Part shown: piece after piece, positions 5,967 through 20,189 of the stretch | Numbering within the stretch: the stretch's first letter is position 1 | How the letters are laid out: each line of letters starts with the position of its first letter | IMG/VR virus record: IMGVR_UViG_3300030099_004576 | Location: 1-38,828 of that record | DNA length: 38,828 nt | From: a virus | Strand: one strand, 5' to 3' | Notes under the pieces: generated by a model | Seen by the model: only the letters and a program-made list of their open reading frames with translations | Database searches by the model: none | What the model was told of the DNA's origin: nothing | Position numbers and translations under genes: made by a program

Positions 5967-6247
5967 TGGATACAGATTGGCTTTTAGAAGTTTTAGAGGA
6001 AAACGAATGCTTACTAGCAGATGGTTTCGATACCGCACTAATAGGGGTAACTAGCGGTATCAACCCCGTAGCTGTTTACGATGTGAACCAGATGATGACC
6101 ATCTTGGTTAAGCGTGACGGGATGTCCATGGAGGATGCTAGGGAGCACTTAGAGTTTAATGTTTTAGGAGCTTATGTAGGGGAGAAGACCCCTGTATTCA
6201 TTGAACTAGACAAAATAAGGTCATGCGCGTATGTACAGGATTACTGA
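5966..6247 (+). CDS. Conserved phage protein of unknown function, 93 aa
   Basis: I use ATG 5966 because it overlaps the previous stop as TGATG; a GTG at 5963 is less likely. The core PVAVYDVNQMMTILVKRDGM, then SMEDAREHLEFNVLGAYVGE and TPVFIE, matches a widespread small phage family with the pattern DGM-x-x-x-E-A-x-E-x-x-EFNV-x-GA-x-VGE-x-TP. The role of the family is unknown to me. Its end overlaps the start of the secreted protein at 6223 by 25 bases, an unusually long overlap for this window. Confidence 0.7.
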   Translation: MDTDWLLEVLEENECLLADGFDTALIGVTSGINPVAVYDVNQMMTILVKRDGMSMEDAREHLEFNVLGAYVGEKTPVFIELDKIRSCAYVQDY

Positions 6248-7554
6248 TACTGCTGTGGGTTAACATTCCAGTTTACTCACAGTGTGATTTAGAAATACTC
6301 GATGTGGACCTCATCGGGGGTAGCGTAACGATTGCATTCAATAACACCGAGAACTGCGGGGGTACAGGTGGCCCCGATGGGGTTTCTGAAATCCAGTTCG
6401 GTTTTCAAGCTTTAGATAGCGATTGCAACGCAATGAATCAGGGGTGGGACTTTCCCTCTGGATTCTCTATATCTGATGATTCTAGTCACCCTGGTTGGTT
6501 GTACTCGGCTACGACTATGGAGTCCATTAATAACTGGACCAATCTTTATGATGAGCTGATAGATCCCCCATACTATACTGGCGACACTATATCATTCCCC
6601 ATTTACAACCCGTATCAAAACGATTGCGTAGATGGTCCTTTCGCAGCTCAACTGTACTGTAACCTTGAAGGGGGGATAGACTATTGGTTGAGCTTAGACC
6701 TCAGCGTACAAGTCGTGATTTGGCAGATAAGTTATGGTCCGACCATGTATGCTGAAGACGGGGGTTGGGCGGAGGTAGGCATCAACGGGGACGGGACTTC
6801 GACAGGAAGTGGAGTATACGACGACGAGAACTGGCAAGACAATTGGGTCATAGTTGGCCCGTGTGGGTGTCCTATACCTGAGGTTGTGATCGATACCGTT
6901 TATATCGAACTACCACCAGATACCGTCACAGTTGTTGAGTATGATACAATACCAATCCCCATAAACTGGTACTTCTACGATACTACCTATATATACTCCA
7001 CTGACACGCTCTATCTAACTGAGTATCTTACAGATACAATCTACGAGACTGAGTATGTATATGATACAACCTTGGTGGATAACTATATATACGACACAAC
7101 CTATGTATATATACTGGACACCATACTATCCACAGAATACGTTTATGACACCACCTATGTATACCTACTGGACACAGTACACGAGTACATAGTCCAAGAG
7201 CTTTGGTTGGACTGCGATACAGGTCTCCCGTGTGACGACCAGCCAGGGGTTGACGAGTGCGAAGAAATGGTGGTGTTTGTACCTAACGTATTTACCCCAA
7301 ACAACGATGGGGTGAACGATAGTTTCTATGCCCAGCAATCTGACCCTAGCTGTTGGTACGATTGGAGTATGTCAGTTTACAACAGGTGGGGTGGAGTAGT
7401 TTTTCAAACCGACGACCCAGAGTACGCTTGGGATGGAAGCTACAACGGAGGGGGGCACTACGTTCCTGACGGAGTTTACGCTTGGGTTATTAAGGGTAAA
7501 TCGTACTCTGGCAGGACCATAGGTATAGAGGGGACAGTACAGATTTTTAGATGA
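6223..7554 (+). CDS. Secreted repeat protein with T9SS type B (gliding-motility, CHU_C) C-terminal domain
   Basis: 443 residues. Residues 1-20 (MRVCTGLLILLWVNIPVYSQ) form a signal peptide with likely cleavage before Gln20. Residues 21-220 are a Cys-containing beta-rich domain. Residues 223-327 are low-complexity repeats of YDTTYVY and TEYVYDTTYVY units, probably an extended beta stalk. From about 349 to the end lies VFVPNVFTPNNDGVNDSF, then YNRWGGVVF, WDGSYNGG, VPDGVYAWVIKGK and a final strand: the gliding motility-associated C-terminal domain, the type B sorting signal of the type IX secretion system. The product should cross the inner membrane by Sec and be exported or anchored at the host surface. 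Its ATGA overlap with the terminase gene ties it to the late operon. A virion role is possible, but the signal peptide argues for host-surface display. Confidence 0.85.
   Translation: MRVCTGLLILLWVNIPVYSQCDLEILDVDLIGGSVTIAFNNTENCGGTGGPDGVSEIQFGFQALDSDCNAMNQGWDFPSGFSISDDSSHPGWLYSATTMESINNWTNLYDELIDPPYYTGDTISFPIYNPYQNDCVDGPFAAQLYCNLEGGIDYWLSLDLSVQVVIWQISYGPTMYAEDGGWAEVGINGDGTSTGSGVYDDENWQDNWVIVGPCGCPIPEVVIDTVYIELPPDTVTVVEYDTIPIPINWYFYDTTYIYSTDTLYLTEYLTDTIYETEYVYDTTLVDNYIYDTTYVYILDTILSTEYVYDTTYVYLLDTVHEYIVQELWLDCDTGLPCDDQPGVDECEEMVVFVPNVFTPNNDGVNDSFYAQQSDPSCWYDWSMSVYNRWGGVVFQTDDPEYAWDGSYNGGGHYVPDGVYAWVIKGKSYSGRTIGIEGTVQIFR
6889..7206 (+). repeat. Degenerate tandem repeat encoding Y-x-DT-x-Y units
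   Basis: Imperfect repeats of about 33-60 bases (tatgatacaacc- and tacgacacaacctat-like) encode alternating YDTTYVY, LDT and TEYVYDTT motifs in the secreted protein. The two most alike units lie at about 7075-7130 and 7135-7180. Confidence 0.7.
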
Positions 7555-12144: not shown

Positions 12145-12557
12145 TGGCTAGTAAAGTAAATCTCGATGTTTCAGAGAAGCTGGACATCACGTGTAGAAAG
12201 GGTGACACGTTCAATCTTAATCTGTTGCTTAAAGACTCTACAGGCACCGCTTTGACCCTGACCACTTCTGGGTATGAATTCTTAATGCAAGTCAGAGGTA
12301 GACAGAAGGTGAGGGGAGAGCGCAAACTGGTTGTTGGAAGCGTAAATCGTGGCAGGGCTGCAGATGAAGGAATCAATTTTTCATTTGCTACTGACGATTC
12401 AGGCAATTTGACAATATCGGCTAGTGACTCCATTATGCGGCAAGTGTCTCCAGGCCGATACGTTTATGATTTGCAGCAGATTCTTGATGGGGTTTCTACG
12501 ACTATTTTGAAGGGGAACTTCACTGTGAACGATGACATCTCTGAAGCTCTCGCCTAA
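12144..12557 (+). CDS. Beta-sandwich structural protein, possible fibre adaptor
   Basis: 137 residues, beta-rich: DITCRKGDTFNLNLLLKD at about 13-30, FLMQVRGR, then GRYVYDLQQILDGV and ILKGNFTVNDDIS at the end. A domain starting with R-K-G-D-T-F-x-L and ending G-x-F-x-V-x-D-D is common in small adaptor proteins that precede tail or head fibres. It lies between portal and fibre, coupled to both (TAATG on each side), so a fibre adaptor or head-fibre base is a reasonable guess. No catalytic motif is present. Confidence 0.65.
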   Translation: MASKVNLDVSEKLDITCRKGDTFNLNLLLKDSTGTALTLTTSGYEFLMQVRGRQKVRGERKLVVGSVNRGRAADEGINFSFATDDSGNLTISASDSIMRQVSPGRYVYDLQQILDGVSTTILKGNFTVNDDISEALA

Positions 12558-14203
12558 TGTCAACTACGATTACAGTAACTGATGGGACTACGGTAACGGT
12601 AACTCAGCCCGCCTCGAGTAGCATCTCTGTCTCTAGTCCAGGCGCAAAGGGCGATAAGGGAGATAAGGGTGACACGGGCGATACTGGTGCGACTGGAGCT
12701 ACAGGTGCGACTGGTGCTACAGGTGCTACTGGCGCTACAGGTGCTACAGGGCCGCAAGGTCCTGCGGGTTCTGACGGTGCCGACGGTGGAACAAACATCG
12801 TTGTAGATACTTCCCCGCAGCTTGGTGGGGACCTCGATGTCAATGGTAATGACATCGTAAGCACTTCGGACGGGGATATTGATATCAAGCCCAATGGAAA
12901 CGGGAAGGTCAATATAGATAGCTCTAGTTCATCGAGTGGTGTAAAAATATCAGACGGTCACGTCGAACTAAGGAGCGGAACTGGTAGCCCCGCGAAGATT
13001 GATTTCTACTGCGAAAGTGCGGCGGCACACAAAGTTACCGTCCAAGCTCCAGCTCACGCTGATTTTGCGGGAGATGTTCAGTTCACCCTGCCCACATCGA
13101 ATGGAAGTAACGGTCAGGTATTGAAGACCGATGGGTCTGGAAACCTGTCGTATGTAAATCAAACGTCTGACACGCAACTCACTACGGATCAAGTCCAAGA
13201 CATAGCTGGTGCTATGTTCAGTAGCAACACCGAGAGCGGTATCACTGCAACCTATCAAGACGCCGATGGTACTATCGACTTAGAAGTGGGTAGCCTGACG
13301 GTAGCGCAGGGTGGAACAGGAGCTACGTCTTTTGCTGACAAGGCCGTGTTGATTACGCAGGACAGCGGTACCGATACAGTATCTGCTGCGGCCATGTCTA
13401 CCAACGGTCAGCTTTTAATCGGGGGAACTAGCGGACCTGCTGTAGCAACCCTGACGGCTGGTAGCAACGTCACGATTACCAATGCTGACGGAGCAATTAC
13501 GATTGCCGCCGCTGGAGGTGGTGGCGGCGGTGGCGGTGGTGATATCGAGGGTGTGACTGCGGGGGATGGGCTCTCTGGTGGTGGCGACACAGGTAGCGTC
13601 ACACTTAATGTAGCGGCGGCTCAGACCACAATTACCTCTATCATCAACACGGGGATTACAAAGATTGGGACGGCTACTGATCAGGAGTACGTTGACTTCA
13701 GCACTGCAAACGAGGTCAACATCAAGGTCAATGATACAGAGCGACTCAGCGTAACAAATACAGGCGTTGACGTTACTGGTGAGCTCACATCAACAAAGAA
13801 TGTCTTTGCTAAAACCTCAAACACGGACTTCAGTGTTCAGGGGGACATTGTGAAGATTGGGACTGGTAGCACAACTCAAGGCGAATTGTGCTACTACAAG
13901 TCTGATGGAGCTTGGGCTGCCGCTGACGCTGATGCAGCTTCTACCTCTGGTGGGTGTCTTCTCGCTATCGCGTTGGGCACTGATCCAGACGTAGACGGAA
14001 TGCTGCTTCGTGGTATGTTTACTTTGGACCACGACCCAGGTACTATCGCTGATGAGTTGTATGTCTCTACTACGGCAGGGGATATTACTGGTACCGCACC
14101 CTCTGGTAGCGGAGATGTAGTCCGTGTAGTCGGGTATTGCCTCGACAGCACGAATGGTCAGATTTGGTTCAATCCATCGAATGACTTCATCGTCCTCTCA
14201 TAA
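12557..14203 (+). CDS. Collagen-like phage fibre protein
   Basis: 548 residues. After a short beta N-terminus, residues 29-78 are Gly-X-Y collagen repeats (GDKGDKGDTGDTGATGATG and on), which form a triple helix and make the fibre a trimer. Then follows TSPQLGGDLDVNGNDIVSTS, a shaft motif widespread in marine phage fibres, the trimer motif TVAQGGTGATSFADKAVL, a nine-glycine hinge near 319, and GLSGGGDTGSVTLNV. The C-terminal region (from about 380) has STKNVFAKTSNTDF and a compact beta head (GDIVKIGTG to NPSNDFIVLS). It is probably a head or tail fibre, with the receptor-contact part shared with the RCC1-type protein downstream. Coupled through TAATG to both neighbours. Confidence 0.82.
   Translation: MSTTITVTDGTTVTVTQPASSSISVSSPGAKGDKGDKGDTGDTGATGATGATGATGATGATGATGPQGPAGSDGADGGTNIVVDTSPQLGGDLDVNGNDIVSTSDGDIDIKPNGNGKVNIDSSSSSSGVKISDGHVELRSGTGSPAKIDFYCESAAAHKVTVQAPAHADFAGDVQFTLPTSNGSNGQVLKTDGSGNLSYVNQTSDTQLTTDQVQDIAGAMFSSNTESGITATYQDADGTIDLEVGSLTVAQGGTGATSFADKAVLITQDSGTDTVSAAAMSTNGQLLIGGTSGPAVATLTAGSNVTITNADGAITIAAAGGGGGGGGGDIEGVTAGDGLSGGGDTGSVTLNVAAAQTTITSIINTGITKIGTATDQEYVDFSTANEVNIKVNDTERLSVTNTGVDVTGELTSTKNVFAKTSNTDFSVQGDIVKIGTGSTTQGELCYYKSDGAWAAADADAASTSGGCLLAIALGTDPDVDGMLLRGMFTLDHDPGTIADELYVSTTAGDITGTAPSGSGDVVRVVGYCLDSTNGQIWFNPSNDFIVLS
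12641..12790 (+). repeat. Collagen-like Gly-X-Y coding repeat
   Basis: Fifty codons from about 12641 keep Gly at nearly every third residue, mostly as GAT and GDT triplets (nine-base units ggtgctaca or ggcgataag-like). The GAT run (12692-12750) is close to a perfect nine-base tandem and is prone to slippage in length. Confidence 0.85.
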
Positions 14204-15537
14204 TGCCAGACATAGCATCATTTAACGCAATTGACGTGGGTAACATAGCATCAATTAACGGTCAAGATGTCGCCTCTGGGGGACTTACGACTCCCAGTGA
14301 GGGAACAACTGGAATGCTTTACTTTGAAAAAGCACAGGCTGCGCGGTCATCAACAGTACCAGATACAGATGATTGGTTTACAGTTGATGTCCCATTTTTA
14401 TACAAACACGCTCTTCACAGTACAACAGATATTGTAAAGCTTAGGCTTGGTCAGTATCACTATTTTGGTTTGGATTCATCTGGCGTCCTTTATTCTGCTG
14501 GATATGCAAACACGAATTACATGGGTAGGTCCGTTGGCTCTGCTGGTTCTGGAACGGCGGCAAGGGACTTTGTTCAGACTCTTACTGGTGTAGCTAAGTT
14601 CGACATTCACAACAATGGTGCGTGGGCAATAAAAACAGATGGCACTTTGTGGTGGTGTGGTAGTATCTCTAGTTATGCTGATAGCGGAGATACGGGTCAA
14701 AGCACAACAACAGCCACTAACCAATGGCTACAGTTTGGGTCAGATACAGATTGGATAGACATTACTAGTTGGGGTCAATACCCGCAAAAGTCAATGGCTA
14801 TCAAAGGTGGGTCAGGGGCTCAATACCTATATGTCTGTGGTAGTAATGCTCAGGGTGGGCTCCCTGTAGGAACTACATCTGGCAGTACCAAGCCATGGAC
14901 GCGAGCAAAGTCAGGGTCTTCAACCGACCTCAATGAAACCTTTAATGCTGGTGGCTTAGATCTAGGGTATCAAAATGGGATGGCTGTTGCAGCGAACGGA
15001 AAGCTGTACGCTTGGGGGGAAGGAAACACTGGTGTGTTAGGAACTGGTAGCACTACTGACGTGTACTACGCCACACAAGTAGGGTCGGACACGGACTGGT
15101 CCAAACCGTTTGTTTACGCTGCCAGGAATGCGGGGTTGTGTATTAAGACAGATGGGACTCTGTATATGTCAACAAACAGTAGTAGCTCTTTGGGTATTCA
15201 ACCTGCTTCAGCTAATAGAACATATCAGCAAGTGGGCACAGATAGCGATTTTGAAGATCTCAAATACATAAGAAGGTCAACATCTGGAGGTTCTGACTTG
15301 ATATTCGTAAAGAAAAATGGTGCTTGGTATGCGAACTGGGATACTACGATAAGTTACCCTCACTCCTTCGGTGGCACTAGCGGTCTAATCGCGCCGTCAA
15401 CGAACACCTTTACAGCGTTGAACGACTTCTTGCAGGGTAGTGACGTTACTGCAACAATAACTGAAATTGAGTTTCAGAACATTGAAGCAAATAGCACGAA
15501 AGGACTCAACCTGTGGATTTGCACTTCAACCTCCTAA
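14203..15537 (+). CDS. RCC1-like beta-propeller protein, likely fibre tip or receptor-binding protein
   Basis: 444 residues with repeated blades of the RCC1 type: GVLYSAGYANTNYMG, GTLWWCGSISSY, QYLYVCGSNAQGGL, GKLYAWGEGNTGVLG, GTLYMSTNSSSSLG and GAWYANWD, spaced about 45-60 residues and separated by DTDW segments. Six or seven blades would close a propeller. Downstream of the collagen-like fibre and coupled to it, it is best read as a tip or adhesin that binds the host surface. The first 30 residues (IASFNAIDVGNIASINGQDV) are a short beta attachment segment seen in marine phage fibres. An enzymatic role is not indicated. The last 80 residues (ITEIEFQNIE) form a different beta tail. Confidence 0.78.
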   Translation: MPDIASFNAIDVGNIASINGQDVASGGLTTPSEGTTGMLYFEKAQAARSSTVPDTDDWFTVDVPFLYKHALHSTTDIVKLRLGQYHYFGLDSSGVLYSAGYANTNYMGRSVGSAGSGTAARDFVQTLTGVAKFDIHNNGAWAIKTDGTLWWCGSISSYADSGDTGQSTTTATNQWLQFGSDTDWIDITSWGQYPQKSMAIKGGSGAQYLYVCGSNAQGGLPVGTTSGSTKPWTRAKSGSSTDLNETFNAGGLDLGYQNGMAVAANGKLYAWGEGNTGVLGTGSTTDVYYATQVGSDTDWSKPFVYAARNAGLCIKTDGTLYMSTNSSSSLGIQPASANRTYQQVGTDSDFEDLKYIRRSTSGGSDLIFVKKNGAWYANWDTTISYPHSFGGTSGLIAPSTNTFTALNDFLQGSDVTATITEIEFQNIEANSTKGLNLWICTSTS

Positions 15538-15804: not shown

Positions 15805-15812
15805 TATATTTG
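15805..15812 (+). promoter_or_regulatory. Bacteroidota-type -7 box TATATTTG before the T9SS type A gene
   Basis: TATATTTG ends four bases before the ATG at 15817, exactly the spacing seen at 2870 and 26721. The message is predicted to be leaderless or nearly so. No -33 element is seen. It opens the export cassette. Confidence 0.72.
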
Positions 15813-15816
15813 TGGG

Positions 15817-18498
15817 ATGGCAAGCTCCACTGCAAATAGAGTAAGAAACCTGCTGAAAAAGCACGGTCTGAAGGGGGTAAATAAACCGAAGAGAACGCCT
15901 CAGCATCCGAAGAAGTCGCACATAGTGTTGGCGAAAGAAGGCAATAAGGTGAAGCTTATCCGATACGGTCAGCAGGGGGCAAAGACAGCAGGTAAACCAA
16001 AGGCGGGGGAGAGCGACCGCATGAAGAAGAAGCGAGCAAGCTTCAAGGCTCGGCATCGCCGCAACATAGCCAAGGGGAAGATGAGTGCTGCGTATTGGGC
16101 TAATAAAACTAAATGGTTCTTGCTCCTCCCTATCTTGTCTCTGCAGGCGCAGAGCTGGGTAAACGTAAATTTTGTTTCTGATCAGTACGCCGACGAAAGC
16201 TCATGGGAGATACTGTCTGACACTAACGTTGTCGCCTCAGGGGTAGCAGAAGAAGTTCTAGTAAACCTCTCCCCAGGACAGTATACGTTTGTAGCATACG
16301 ACGAGTTTGGTGACGGGATATGCTGTCAATATGGGGAGGGGTTTTTTACTTTAACGAACGGATGTGGGTTAGATATAGGGGTGTATGACTTCTCTTCTGC
16401 TCAAATCGAAATCCCATTCAACTTGCTCCCTTGCCCACCGCCAGTTGTTGGGTGCATGGATGAAGAGGCTAGCAACTATGACCCGTTGGCTGTTATTGAT
16501 GATTTCTGTCTATACAGCGTAAAGTTCAGATTGGATTTGAACGGGCCACACCCAGAGGGTATCGTAACGCCAGAGGTGAACACAAGTTGGTACGGCTGGT
16601 GCGGTAGTTGCAATCAAATGCAAGACCTAGACGGTGACGGTATATGGGAGGTTACGATTGATTTCCCGCTAGGTGACCACCTCTGGAAGTTTTCAGCAGA
16701 TGATTGGGCATATCAAGAAATGCCAGCGGGAGTTCTAAACTCCCCGTGCTTTTTGTTCGATGAATGGGGCTTTGTAAACAGGCCCTTAAACGTAGAAGGA
16801 TCGATGACGCTCCCTACCTTCTGTTGGGAGAGTTGCTTCCCTTGCGGTGCTATAGTTGGATGCACTGACTCTACCGCCACAAACTACAACCCTTGGGCTA
16901 ACTTCAATCAGGGGTGTAACGTAGTCGAGTCTGCTAACTGCAGCATTACGGAAACAGAGGTTTCTATTACAGTCATTCCCGACAATTACCCAGCAGAGAC
17001 TAGTTGGGGTTTAATTGACCTCACCGAGGGGGGCGTTATAGCCTCAATCAATACAGGAGACTTATCTGACGCCCCCGTGGGGATACCGATTGTGACAAAC
17101 ACCTGCGTGTCTATAGGTAGTGAAATCCAAATCCTTGTTCTAGACTCGTATGGTGATGGGATGAATGGATCACAGTGGGGGGGAGAAGACGGGAAAGTTA
17201 TAGTGGAAGCGTGTGGTGAAGAAATCTGGTCACTACCATCAGAAAACACAAACTTTGGATACAGCTTACAGGCTTCTTTCCCTGCCCCTGTATGCCAAAC
17301 CGTAGAGGACTTGGTGGGGTGTGGGGACCCAGAGTACTTAGAGTATAACCCCGACGCTACGGTGTTTCTCGATTTGCTTTGTGAAACGCCAGTGGTATAC
17401 GGATGTGTAGACACAGCATACTATAACTACAGTCCTGAGGCTAACGTAGAGGAGCAACCCGACTCTTGCTTTTACACCTTAACTCTTACTGACGGTGTTG
17501 GTGATGGATGGTTTGGTAGTTGGATTGGAGTAAAGCAAGGGGAGTGGATTTCCCCGCAGTACCAAATGGGGCCAGCAGATGGGGTGCAAGAAAGCTTTGA
17601 GCTATACCTCCCTTCTGACGAAGAGGTAGAGTTGTTCTTCTTCTCCACGCCACAGTCTTTGTTTACCGTGGCTCAGTGCGGTTTTATGCTTGAGGGCCCA
17701 ACGGGAGACACGCTCATCGACGTACCTCAGTGGAACATCATCCCATTTCCATACACATACACAGCGACGACATACTGCGGCAACCTTTGCGAAGAGTATG
17801 TCTATGGATGTTTAGACACTTTGGCCCAGAACTATACTGCACTAGCAAATACTGCTGACAGTAGTTGCTACTATGCCGCAGGATGTATGCAGGCTGGGTA
17901 TCTCGAGTATTACACTCAAGGGTATGAGGCCGACTATGATGACGGGTCTTGTTTAACGTTTGCCGTTTTTGGTTGCACAGAACCCAGTGCGCTCAACTAT
18001 GATGAGGGGGCTAATGTAGACAACGGCAGTTGTGTTCCTGTCGTCGTTGGTTGCATGGACGTGTCCGCTTACAACTATAGTATCGAGGCTAACACGGAGG
18101 GAGAGTGCTTGTATGACGCGGGGTGTGCCACAGGCCCAGGCGTACCATATTGGCTAAATGATTCTTGTTATGGGTGGGTGATTGAAGTAGACCCTTACTG
18201 TTGTGAGGCAGAGTGGGATGGTGGGTGTATTGGATTGTACGATTACTGTCAGCAGGGGTGGCCTACGGGTGTCACTGAATTAGCAGAGGAGGTTACAATC
18301 CGCCCAACGGTTGTAGAGCGTCAGTTTTATATAGACTCCCCATACCCGTTTGTCCTGACTGTCTTCGACGCTACAGGGAGGGAGGTGTTGCGGTCTTCAA
18401 GTCCGACGCAAGACGCATCGCAGTGGCCCCTAGGTACCTACCACTTGATTGTGGTGTCTGACAATCGCATGTTCAAGCAAACCATCGTTAAGCTATGA
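15817..18498 (+). CDS. Fusion of a basic phage domain to a secreted T9SS type A repeat protein
   Basis: 893 residues. Residues 1-100 are a basic domain (SHIVLAKEGNKVKLIRYGQQG, then SFKARHRRNIAKGKMSAAYW) that I know as a free-standing small phage protein ending near ANKTKW. It continues directly into FLLLPILSLQAQ at 101-112, a signal-peptide core with cleavage after Ala111. Met89 (base 16081) follows AAGGGGAAG and would start a normal Sec signal peptide, MSAAYWANKTKW plus the core. The exported part has DEFGDG and DSYGDG-type domains near 161, 442 and 558, a CBM48-like beta domain near 235-320, about nine GC-D-x-x-A-x-NY repeats from 212, and a type A T9SS sorting domain at about 826-893 (FDATGREVL, WPLGTYHLIVV, ending TIVKL). 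It overlaps the next gene by four bases. Either the gene makes two products or the fused protein is exported. Confidence 0.82.
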   Translation: MASSTANRVRNLLKKHGLKGVNKPKRTPQHPKKSHIVLAKEGNKVKLIRYGQQGAKTAGKPKAGESDRMKKKRASFKARHRRNIAKGKMSAAYWANKTKWFLLLPILSLQAQSWVNVNFVSDQYADESSWEILSDTNVVASGVAEEVLVNLSPGQYTFVAYDEFGDGICCQYGEGFFTLTNGCGLDIGVYDFSSAQIEIPFNLLPCPPPVVGCMDEEASNYDPLAVIDDFCLYSVKFRLDLNGPHPEGIVTPEVNTSWYGWCGSCNQMQDLDGDGIWEVTIDFPLGDHLWKFSADDWAYQEMPAGVLNSPCFLFDEWGFVNRPLNVEGSMTLPTFCWESCFPCGAIVGCTDSTATNYNPWANFNQGCNVVESANCSITETEVSITVIPDNYPAETSWGLIDLTEGGVIASINTGDLSDAPVGIPIVTNTCVSIGSEIQILVLDSYGDGMNGSQWGGEDGKVIVEACGEEIWSLPSENTNFGYSLQASFPAPVCQTVEDLVGCGDPEYLEYNPDATVFLDLLCETPVVYGCVDTAYYNYSPEANVEEQPDSCFYTLTLTDGVGDGWFGSWIGVKQGEWISPQYQMGPADGVQESFELYLPSDEEVELFFFSTPQSLFTVAQCGFMLEGPTGDTLIDVPQWNIIPFPYTYTATTYCGNLCEEYVYGCLDTLAQNYTALANTADSSCYYAAGCMQAGYLEYYTQGYEADYDDGSCLTFAVFGCTEPSALNYDEGANVDNGSCVPVVVGCMDVSAYNYSIEANTEGECLYDAGCATGPGVPYWLNDSCYGWVIEVDPYCCEAEWDGGCIGLYDYCQQGWPTGVTELAEEVTIRPTVVERQFYIDSPYPFVLTVFDATGREVLRSSSPTQDASQWPLGTYHLIVVSDNRMFKQTIVKL
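16450..18170 (+). repeat. Coding repeats of the GCxDxxAxNYxPxAxxDxxSC type
   Basis: About nine copies, roughly 25 residues each, start at 16450, near 16857, 17320, 17400, 17808, 17880, 17970, 18050 and 18120, some separated by other domains. Best conserved are GCTDSTATNYNPWANF, GCTEPSALNYDEGANVDNGS and GCMDVSAYNYSIEAN. This motif is common in surface proteins of marine Flavobacteriia. Confidence 0.78.
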
Positions 18499-19529
18499 GA
18501 CTACTACTGGCTCTACTCCTGTGCATTCCACTAGCGAGTGGGGCTCAGACACTGAAGAAGGCTTTTCGCTTCTCTACTTTCTACGCGGCTGTCAACGGCA
18601 ACAACTCTCTGTCTGACTACAATACGTACTCTGTATTCAATGGACCGCTGTCGACAGATATCGTACAGACTCCATTCGACTACTCTCTAACGCTAGGGAT
18701 ACGGAAGATTGCTAGGTTCAAGTATGAGAACCGAGCCAATGTATTCTACAACGGTGAGGAGCACTCTTACTCTGATGCAGCTACAATCGGTACGGTCAAA
18801 GGTTTTGAGTTCTTATTCGAAAGCGACTATCGCAGGCAGCAAGGGGTGCTGTACCTAGACCAGAACCACTTCCTTAGATACGTCGGTGGGAGGTTTGTGG
18901 GGAAGGTAGAGTATGTCCAGGATGGCTTTGCCGACGTCAGCTACCTCGAGGCTTCGCAGAGGCTGCGCATCAACTCCAAGGGTAAGCTGTCTTTCAATAT
19001 CGGGGCGGCACAACGCATCTCCGAGCCATATGGTTATGATCCGCTAAAGCAGTGGGAGCTCCCCAACGGAAGCCTGCATTACACTCAGCTTGCTTTGAGT
19101 GAGGGGTACAGCTATAACTTCGCTACAGGTGAGTATATGAATCCTGACGGAGATGTAGTGGCTAATAGCTTTGATGTTTGGCGGGAGGTTGTTATCCCTG
19201 AAGTGCTGAAGGATTATGTACAGCGTAAGCGATCAGAGCTAAACACAGAGTGGAACTACTCCTTAGTGGTCGGGTTCGACTACTACCACTACACCAAAGA
19301 CTTTTGGTTGCACTCGTGGGCCAATGTCTTGCCTCGACATTTCGATACGGGGTCAGAGTTTTCTTACTTCCAACTCAACGGGGGGCAGTGGGTGGACTAC
19401 AGTGGGGGACTGGTCTTTGGGTGGAAGCTCAATAGATCGTTCGGCTGGTTCCTAGAAGGACGATATAACAAGTACTGGAACAGAGAGTGGCACGACTTCT
19501 CGGTTGGGGTCAATTACGTAATATTCTGA
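18495..19529 (+). CDS. Putative outer-membrane beta-barrel protein encoded by the phage
   Basis: 344 residues. Residues 1-17 (MRLLLALLLCIPLASGA) form a signal peptide, cut before Gln18. The rest has alternating amphipathic strands rich in Tyr, Phe and Trp (FEFLFESDYRR, NHFLRYVGGRFVGKVEYV, LVVGFDYYHYTKDFWLHSWA, FLEGRYNKYWNREW) and ends in Phe (SVGVNYVIF), the form of the C-terminal recognition signal for BAM insertion. No PorP/SprF-type start (QDPQFSQYM) is present, so I do not call it a gliding or T9SS partner. The ATG overlaps the stop of the T9SS type A gene, which suggests matched production. Possible jobs are masking a receptor, anchoring the coupled exported protein, or envelope changes before lysis. 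None is proven. Confidence 0.72.
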   Translation: MRLLLALLLCIPLASGAQTLKKAFRFSTFYAAVNGNNSLSDYNTYSVFNGPLSTDIVQTPFDYSLTLGIRKIARFKYENRANVFYNGEEHSYSDAATIGTVKGFEFLFESDYRRQQGVLYLDQNHFLRYVGGRFVGKVEYVQDGFADVSYLEASQRLRINSKGKLSFNIGAAQRISEPYGYDPLKQWELPNGSLHYTQLALSEGYSYNFATGEYMNPDGDVVANSFDVWREVVIPEVLKDYVQRKRSELNTEWNYSLVVGFDYYHYTKDFWLHSWANVLPRHFDTGSEFSYFQLNGGQWVDYSGGLVFGWKLNRSFGWFLEGRYNKYWNREWHDFSVGVNYVIF

Positions 19530-19530
19530 T

Positions 19531-19815
19531 ATGGCAAAGGAGATTAACGAGGACATGGGATTCAACGTCAGCATTAAGTCGCTGGCTGGAATTGGAGTGG
19601 GGATGGCTTCTCTAATCGGAATGTGGTTTACTCTGCAGGCCGATATCGCCGAGGCCAAAGAGTTGCCTGAGCCTCTGCCCTCAGAGGTTTCCCGTATGGA
19701 GTTTGATATGAAAGACCAGTTGATTCGACAGACTATTATGTCTACTCAAGAAGATGTCGGTGAGATAAAAGAAGACATCAAACGGATAGAAGAAAAAATC
19801 GACCAACTCAAGTAA
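19531..19815 (+). CDS. Single-TM protein with C-terminal coiled coil, holin or spanin-like
   Basis: 94 residues. A hydrophobic segment near residues 17-36 (LAGIGVGMASLIGMWFTLQA) follows a short polar N-terminus; the rest is charged and ends in a coiled coil (EIKEDIKRIEEKIDQLK). This layout, one membrane anchor plus periplasmic coiled coil, is common among marine phage holin or spanin-like proteins. It lies between the exported barrel protein and an exported thioredoxin-fold protein, two bases after the former. A lysis role is inferred; a simple membrane anchor is the alternative. Confidence 0.68.
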   Translation: MAKEINEDMGFNVSIKSLAGIGVGMASLIGMWFTLQADIAEAKELPEPLPSEVSRMEFDMKDQLIRQTIMSTQEDVGEIKEDIKRIEEKIDQLK

Positions 19816-19823
19816 GATGAATT

Positions 19824-20189
19824 ATGAAAGCAATACTTGCCCTCTTTACAGCATTTGCGTTCTTCTCAGCGGCGGCCTATGTAGCCGAGGTTGCGGAGGC
19901 TGAGGTCTGCAACTCTGGTGTATGCGTCGTAGAGTTTAACGCCTCTTTCAACAAGAGCAATGGAGTAGAGTGGATAGAAAAGTTAAAGGACTGCACTACC
20001 TCCCGCATCGACATTGTAGAAAGCCCTGAGTTACAGCAGAAGCATAAAATCGTAGTAGTCCCTACTATTATTATCTTTAACGACGGGGAGGAAGTAGAAA
20101 GATTTCAGGCAAACATTATGATGGCTATAGAAGCCTCAAAGTCTGATGTGCAAGAAAGTGTAGATGAAATATTAATGAGCTCTTTTTGA
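19824..20189 (+). CDS. Exported thioredoxin-fold protein lacking the catalytic CxxC
   Basis: 121 residues. Signal peptide at 1-26 (FTAFAFFSAAAYVAEVAEA end). The body matches thioredoxin: strand VCVVEFNASFN where a true thioredoxin has VVDFWAxWCGPC, then helix, RIDIVESPELQQKHKIVVVP with the cis-proline position kept, TIIIFNDGEEVERFQA. Both active-site cysteines are gone (ASFNKSN); the only cysteines are in CNSGVC at the mature N-terminus and DCTTS. It is therefore unlikely to be a redox enzyme and may instead bind a protein partner in the periplasm. It follows the holin-like gene by eight bases. Confidence 0.75.
   Translation: MKAILALFTAFAFFSAAAYVAEVAEAEVCNSGVCVVEFNASFNKSNGVEWIEKLKDCTTSRIDIVESPELQQKHKIVVVPTIIIFNDGEEVERFQANIMMAIEASKSDVQESVDEILMSSF

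Follow-up and report, generated by a model that had tools for sequence, protein, structure and literature searches.

Bacterial type II membrane proteins consist of a cytosolic N-terminal domain, one hydrophobic segment and a C-terminal part that is translocated. In flaviviruses, the hydrophobic C-terminus of the capsid protein serves both as its anchor on the cytosolic side and as the internal signal sequence of prM (PMC10383662). A two-protein precursor processed by signal peptidase has not been described for tailed phages in the openly accessible literature that we searched, which also yielded nothing to the point on phage-encoded T9SS substrates or on internal signal sequences in phage proteins. 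Here, we present a phage gene that appears to combine these elements. Our reading, to which we assign a probability of about 0.6, is that it is a maintained fusion that gives rise to one chain from Met1, comprising a cytosolic basic head, an internal signal and an exported cargo, and that this chain is probably split by the signal peptidase of the host.

The gene resides in a virus record of 38,828 bases (the window, i.e., the whole stretch of DNA that was analysed). Among the matches listed for its terminase, the nearest named relatives are Flavobacterium and Cellulophaga phages (41–49% identity), and the host is therefore most likely a member of the Bacteroidota. A frame of 893 codons runs uninterrupted from the ATG at 15817 to the stop codon at 18496–18498. 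The initial annotation had seen in this single frame a small basic phage protein that passes into a signal-peptide core and then into a secreted protein of T9SS type A, and this layout was borne out. The gene, its promoter and the genes that follow are composed as listed here:

15805..15812, + strand: Bacteroidetes-type −7 element TATATTTG, 4 nt before ATG 15817
15817..16116, + strand: basic head, residues 1–100, phrog_7595, net charge +27, normally a stand-alone protein ending at W100
16081..16083, + strand: codon of Met89, most plausibly just one of the conserved residues of the head (GKMSAAYWA motif)
16117..16149, + strand: internal signal core, residues 101–111 (FLLLPILSLQA), with a predicted signal peptidase cut at A111|Q112
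16150..18495, + strand: predicted exported cargo, residues 112–893, with GC-x-D repeats and beta domains
18322..18492, + strand: T9SS type A C-terminal sorting domain (CTD), residues 836–892, assigned by TIGR04183 and by a fold match
18495..19529, + strand: next gene of the cassette, overlapping by ATGA, with its own signal peptide and predicted to be exported
19531..19815, + strand: protein of 94 aa that is conserved in the cassette and has a single hydrophobic segment
19824..20189, + strand: thioredoxin-like protein, predicted to be exported, with its own signal peptide; a homologous protein serves as cargo in a second fusion (L276/L317, see below)

The identity of the head is well founded. 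In a profile search, residues 9–100 matched phrog_7595 (E 4e-39, profile positions 5–96 of 96), a family of small basic proteins of marine tailed phages (Roseobacter, Synechococcus and Puniceispirillum phages), in agreement with the earlier proposal that residues 1–100 correspond to a free-standing phage protein. The window head is full-length and contains the invariant family motif SFKARH..NI..GK.SAAYWA....KW. Other members, however, stop at KW or bear a short tail of the SPSKTK type, whereas in the window the Trp is followed in frame by a signal sequence and another 782 residues (793 after W100). In most of the 80 closest relatives, the head is a free-standing gene with a stop codon directly after ...KVKW (ANKVKW), the equivalent of W100. 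The basic domain is hence separate in relatives and ends at the ANKTKW point, which is the outcome that the initial annotation had named as revealing the fusion point; in the window it is not a stand-alone protein that ends at the conserved Trp but a phrog_7595 domain inside a fusion. An AF2 model of the head (mean pLDDT 82) consists of a helix, a beta hairpin and two helices; no solved structure matched it by sequence and none clearly by fold (best E 1.7). Since the head gene of named phages sits among late or structural genes and the domain weakly matches a PHROG family whose annotation reads minor head protein and DNA pilot (3.6e-6), a role in the phage head or with DNA can be suggested.

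The region following the Trp varies among stand-alone heads. Six of them (L322, L323, L324, L326, L251, L260) carry hydrophobic tails of about 7–12 residues, such as LFLLFLC or ILILPLWLSL, which are possibly membrane tails or have arisen by chance. In L162, L164, L171, L172, L174, L211 and L249, a region that leads to an HNH-type endonuclease gene in another frame breaks into the head frame at this Trp or immediately behind it, and short hydrophobic extensions result. With several of them entering an HNH endonuclease gene in this way, short hydrophobic extensions after KW were not counted as further fusions. A hydrophobic protein is encoded directly downstream of 13% of the stand-alone heads (9/67) versus 6% of control ORFs, the cases being too few to carry weight.

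The fusion point is shared by a group of phages from IMG/VR. The junction KW|[CF][LM]L[LF]PILSLQAQS is common to L082, L083, L084, L085, L086, L088 and L099, of which L082 and L083 are almost identical phages, such that six relatives besides the window were counted as distinct (seven fused sequences). The proteins with this junction show 74–95% identity, the range over the whole protein being 74–94% for the six that were aligned, and the codon after the junction Trp is TTC in the window and TTC, TGC or TGT in the relatives. The signal-peptide core expected just after the basic domain is present: WFLLLPILSL (residues 100–109) is the most hydrophobic stretch of 10 residues in the whole 893-aa protein. 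If the stand-alone head genes are read through, only 1 of 77 offers a comparably hydrophobic stretch of 10 codons past the stop. The A|Q cleavage motif is retained in all fused relatives and also in the homologues that are encoded by separate genes. A search for the junction pattern in genome_contigs returned no head among the matches.

Within this group, the head is evidently maintained. Across the seven fused sequences, the amino-acid difference is 0.13 for head codons 13–100 and 0.20 for the cargo, and the difference at four-fold sites is 0.65 and 0.52, respectively; judged by these values, the head is under purifying selection at the protein level and is more constrained than the cargo. 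No second copy of the head was found in the contigs of the fused phages, which are possibly fragments. The gene at 15817–18498 is a mosaic: codons 1–22 are nearest to L084/L085, codons 23–88 to L086 and codons from 89 onward to L082. Since the nearest relative changes along the gene in this manner, head segments are best described as having been exchanged by recombination.

One close relative sheds light on the modular nature of the protein. The mature cargo of L087 nests in the fused clade, where the window and L082 form its sister group (support 99/98), and starts with MNRLLTLLLLLPFSMMAQ|GSWVNV, i.e., behind a conventional signal peptide; a head was not found in its 67.9-kb contig. As L087 has this cargo with an ordinary signal peptide and without the head, the cargo works, or at least persists, on its own, and the head is, on comparison of these genes, a separable module. 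The boundary of the module exchange coincides with the end of the signal peptide, the predicted cleavage site. The otherwise closely related cargo of L087 (8100–8373) ends in a different, more canonical T9SS type A sorting domain, which suggests that CTDs have been swapped as well.

The sequence TAHHTTTG is the −7 element of the main sigma factor of Bacteroidetes. It is located exactly 4 nt before Met1 in 7/7 fused phages, although its variable bases differ (TATATTTG in five cases, TACATTTG in L088 and TATCTTTG in L099). In Flavobacterium johnsoniae, transcription starts 4–5 nt after the −7 element (PMC6847099), and because the 4-nt spacing fits this rule, the mRNA is predicted to be leaderless, with the A of Met1 as its first base. 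Most F. johnsoniae mRNAs are leadered (PMC6847099), and leaderless mRNA would therefore be a habit of the phage. Exact copies of TATATTTGT are present at window positions 2870, 9680, 15805, 21074, 26721 and 28931, all six on the + strand and upstream of genes; in four cases an ATG follows after 4–5 nt, a spacing that suggests leaderless phage mRNAs.

IMG/VR was also scanned for heads in which a codon of chosen classes continues the frame beyond the Trp. At least one other kind of long fusion was detected among the matches listed, represented by L276 and, found via its cargo, L317. Here, the junction reads KVKW|[ML]W[L][IL]L-M-L-S... and is followed by a signal core and a thioredoxin-like protein that is homologous (34% identity) to the product of the separate exported gene at 19824–20189 of the window. 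The cassette of L276 and L317 also includes homologues of the window gene starting at 18495. On the head tree, the union of both fused groups in one clade was rejected (p-AU 0.022, computed with a rough bootstrap on an alignment of 92 columns and for small samples of seven and two fused phages), and the two fusions therefore look independent. In L317, position 89 is TTT (Phe), and there is no in-frame ATG, GTG or TTG between codons 3 and 101; the only candidates after Met1 are codons 101, 102 and 108, which lie inside or behind the hydrophobic core. Since no usable in-frame start other than Met1 exists, the exported product of L317 must, on this reading of its codons, start at the head, with head and signal being translated together.

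The cargo itself resembles T9SS type A substrates of the Bacteroidota (TIGR04183/PF18962) in its signal-peptide-like core, its beta-rich and Cys-rich surface-type body and the modelled fold of its CTD. It differs from them in being encoded by a phage and in having its signal inside the chain, behind a basic domain of 100 residues. Seen from Met1, there is no N-terminal Sec signal peptide, the core being internal at 101–111; in the homologue L087, it is N-terminal. Residues 113–893 are acidic (net −102), and the cargo contains 39 Cys. TIGR04183 matches the C-terminus in 7/10 homologues (best relative E 9.4e-8), while residues 836–892 of the window protein score 17.8–22.5 bits, just under the cut-off of 23. 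The full-length AF2 model was poor (pLDDT 47) and only the match of the CTD was used: the modelled domain adopts the beta-sandwich fold of T9SS type A substrates and is similar to 8glk_D, a NucA-bound complex (E 9e-4, TM 0.75 by target, rmsd 2.2), as well as to 8qb1 (mirolase CTD), 8gl6 (RemA-CTD) and 8gl8. The earlier assignment of a type A sorting domain thus stands on the profile matches of homologues and the predicted fold, with the window's own profile score slightly below the cut-off. The cargo is a separate gene with its own signal peptide in L087 and L089–L091. No bacterial relatives of it were confirmed in genome_contigs, and named phages provided only one weak local match.

The surroundings hint at a cassette of surface-directed proteins, made up of T9SS substrates of types A and B, a thioredoxin-like protein and, probably, an outer-membrane protein. 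We infer that the product of 18495..19529 is probably an outer-membrane barrel. Directly upstream of the cassette, positions 14203–15537 encode a protein with RCC1-like repeats (WD40_RLD/RCC1 matches), preceded at 12557–14203 by a protein that has a collagen-like G-x-y repeat close to the N-terminal end. A probable second T9SS substrate of this phage is encoded at 6223–7554; besides a signal peptide of its own, it possesses a sorting domain of type B (CHU_C 61.8 bits, TIGR04131 40.3 bits). The cassette may serve to remodel the surface of infected marine Bacteroidetes.

The initial annotation had weighed three readings of the frame: a true fusion that is exported with a cytosolic head of 100 residues, which the comparisons above support; a recent loss of a stop codon or a sequencing error; and, as its favourite, two products from one gene. 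In the last of these, translation from Met1 would yield head plus cargo (or serve a role of the head only), and translation from Met89 an exported form with an n-region of 12 residues. Met89 is indeed invariant in the seven aligned fused sequences, MSAAYWANKTKW-FLLLPILSLQA|Q is plausible as a signal peptide, and AAGG lies close upstream of Met89 with an A at −3. It is also correct that the ATG at 16081 is preceded by AAGGGGAAG. This sequence, however, merely represents the codons of a conserved K-G-K and is equally present in stand-alone relatives, and the third base of the Gly codon does not show any SD bias (GGT three times, GGG twice, GGC and GGA once each). Met89 is just as conserved across most stand-alone heads, where, as their gene structure implies, it can have no role as an internal start. 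The SD-like energy at Met89 is unremarkable: it is equalled or bettered by 38 of 156 in-frame internal ATGs, including that of Met69 (16021), which has the stronger SD-like upstream sequence (−8.6 versus −6.2 kcal/mol). Moreover, Bacteroidetes do without SD sequences (PMC6847099), and in the phage of the window the majority of gene starts lack them. Synonymous variation near codon 89 is average or above (windows ranked 277–758 of 879), RNA folding in this region is not unusually structured (z +1.3), and the promoter 4 nt before Met1 in 7/7 phages predicts an mRNA that begins at Met1. A conserved second start with an initiation signal of its own was not found, the ATG being kept in the family of the window and absent in L317, which does not offer a substitute start either. 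With neither nucleotide constraint nor a distinctive initiation signal, production of two proteins via Met89 is not supported and we regard it as quite unlikely, even though some initiation at Met89 might conceivably occur in the window's own family. A start just after W100 (codon 102) was also considered and discarded: it is ATG in L084/L085 and CTA in L086 and L099, i.e., not conserved. In practical terms, gene callers that shift the start to Met89 for the sake of an N-terminal signal peptide would hide the head.

An assembly or sequencing error, or a meaningless recent loss of a stop codon, can practically be dismissed, since the same open junction recurs in diverged contigs from different metagenomes that exhibit many synonymous differences; nothing was found that speaks for such an artefact. 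The head might also be a passive leftover or a long n-region that has lost its function in the phage, leaving a cargo that alone matters. That L087 manages without a head and that L088 has an in-frame deletion within it would agree with this notion. It is nevertheless very improbable in view of a head that differs less than the cargo in amino acids despite higher synonymous change, retains the invariant family motif and is the sole copy in the contigs examined. A further alternative concerns the fate of the chain: left uncut, it would be a type II membrane protein permanently anchored by residues 101–111, its head lying in the cytosol and its C-terminal part beyond the inner membrane. The positive-inside arrangement, helix 91–108 of the AF2 model, which continues (with low confidence) from the head into the signal core, and the short hydrophobic tails after the same Trp in some stand-alone heads are all compatible with such an anchor. 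On the other hand, a core of about 10 residues is short for that purpose, the A|Q motif is kept in all fused relatives and separate-gene homologues, and a T9SS sorting domain requires release from the inner membrane for its carrier to reach the surface. We therefore consider an uncut chain unlikely.

Returning to the maintained fusion that is probably cut, the following course of events is envisaged. A leaderless mRNA from ATG 15817 would give a single chain from Met1, the head (residues 1–100) of which would fold in the cytosol. Residues 101–111, which replace the stop codon of the head gene, would act as an internal signal sequence, with the C-terminal lysines of the head (ANKTKW) providing its positive n-region. 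Translocation of residues 112 onward across the inner membrane would be the task of host Sec and cleavage at A111|Q112 that of signal peptidase I, and by virtue of its C-terminal sorting domain the cargo would travel through the T9SS to the cell surface. The head, extended by a short hydrophobic tail, would remain on the cytosolic side, presumably doing the job of the stand-alone protein, and an internal and a surface protein would be made at a fixed ratio of 1:1. Cutting is favoured by the kept A|Q site, the short core and the T9SS address. A reservation comes from the low hydrophobicity of the core: the mean KD value over 10 residues is about 2.1–2.5 in the fused cores of the window family and L276 and 1.9 in L317, compared with 2.4–3.4 in the stand-alone signal peptides of the same phages, which are longer and more hydrophobic. 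In addition, it would be unusual for a secreted bacterial protein to have a signal that is recognised efficiently when preceded by about 100 residues. Should the proposal be correct, Sec and the T9SS are able to handle cargo of this kind, and the phage relies on the signal peptidase of its host to process a two-protein precursor, as enveloped RNA viruses are known to do.

We tentatively go one step further and suggest, as an idea that may prove right almost as readily as wrong, that a polyprotein resembling an anchored capsid has evolved at least twice in these phages, with two unrelated cargoes, and that signal peptidase thereby furnishes a cytosolic and a surface protein at 1:1 or that assembly is tethered to the export site. 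Compared with bacterial type II membrane proteins, the fusion has the same cytosolic head, single hydrophobic segment and translocated C-terminal part, and is distinguished by its short core with a kept A|Q motif and by a cargo addressed to the T9SS. With the anchored capsid/prM of flaviviruses it shares a basic protein of about 100 residues with a hydrophobic C-terminus that is the signal of the next exported protein. The junction is cut by host signal peptidase in the flaviviral case (PMC10383662), while in the phage fusion the cut is predicted from the A|Q motif. The fusion differs in belonging to a DNA phage in a bacterium, with Sec and the T9SS in place of the ER, and in that nothing points to a second, cytosolic cut. 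The two are not evolutionarily related; the phage fusion resembles the flaviviral arrangement in principle only and not by descent.
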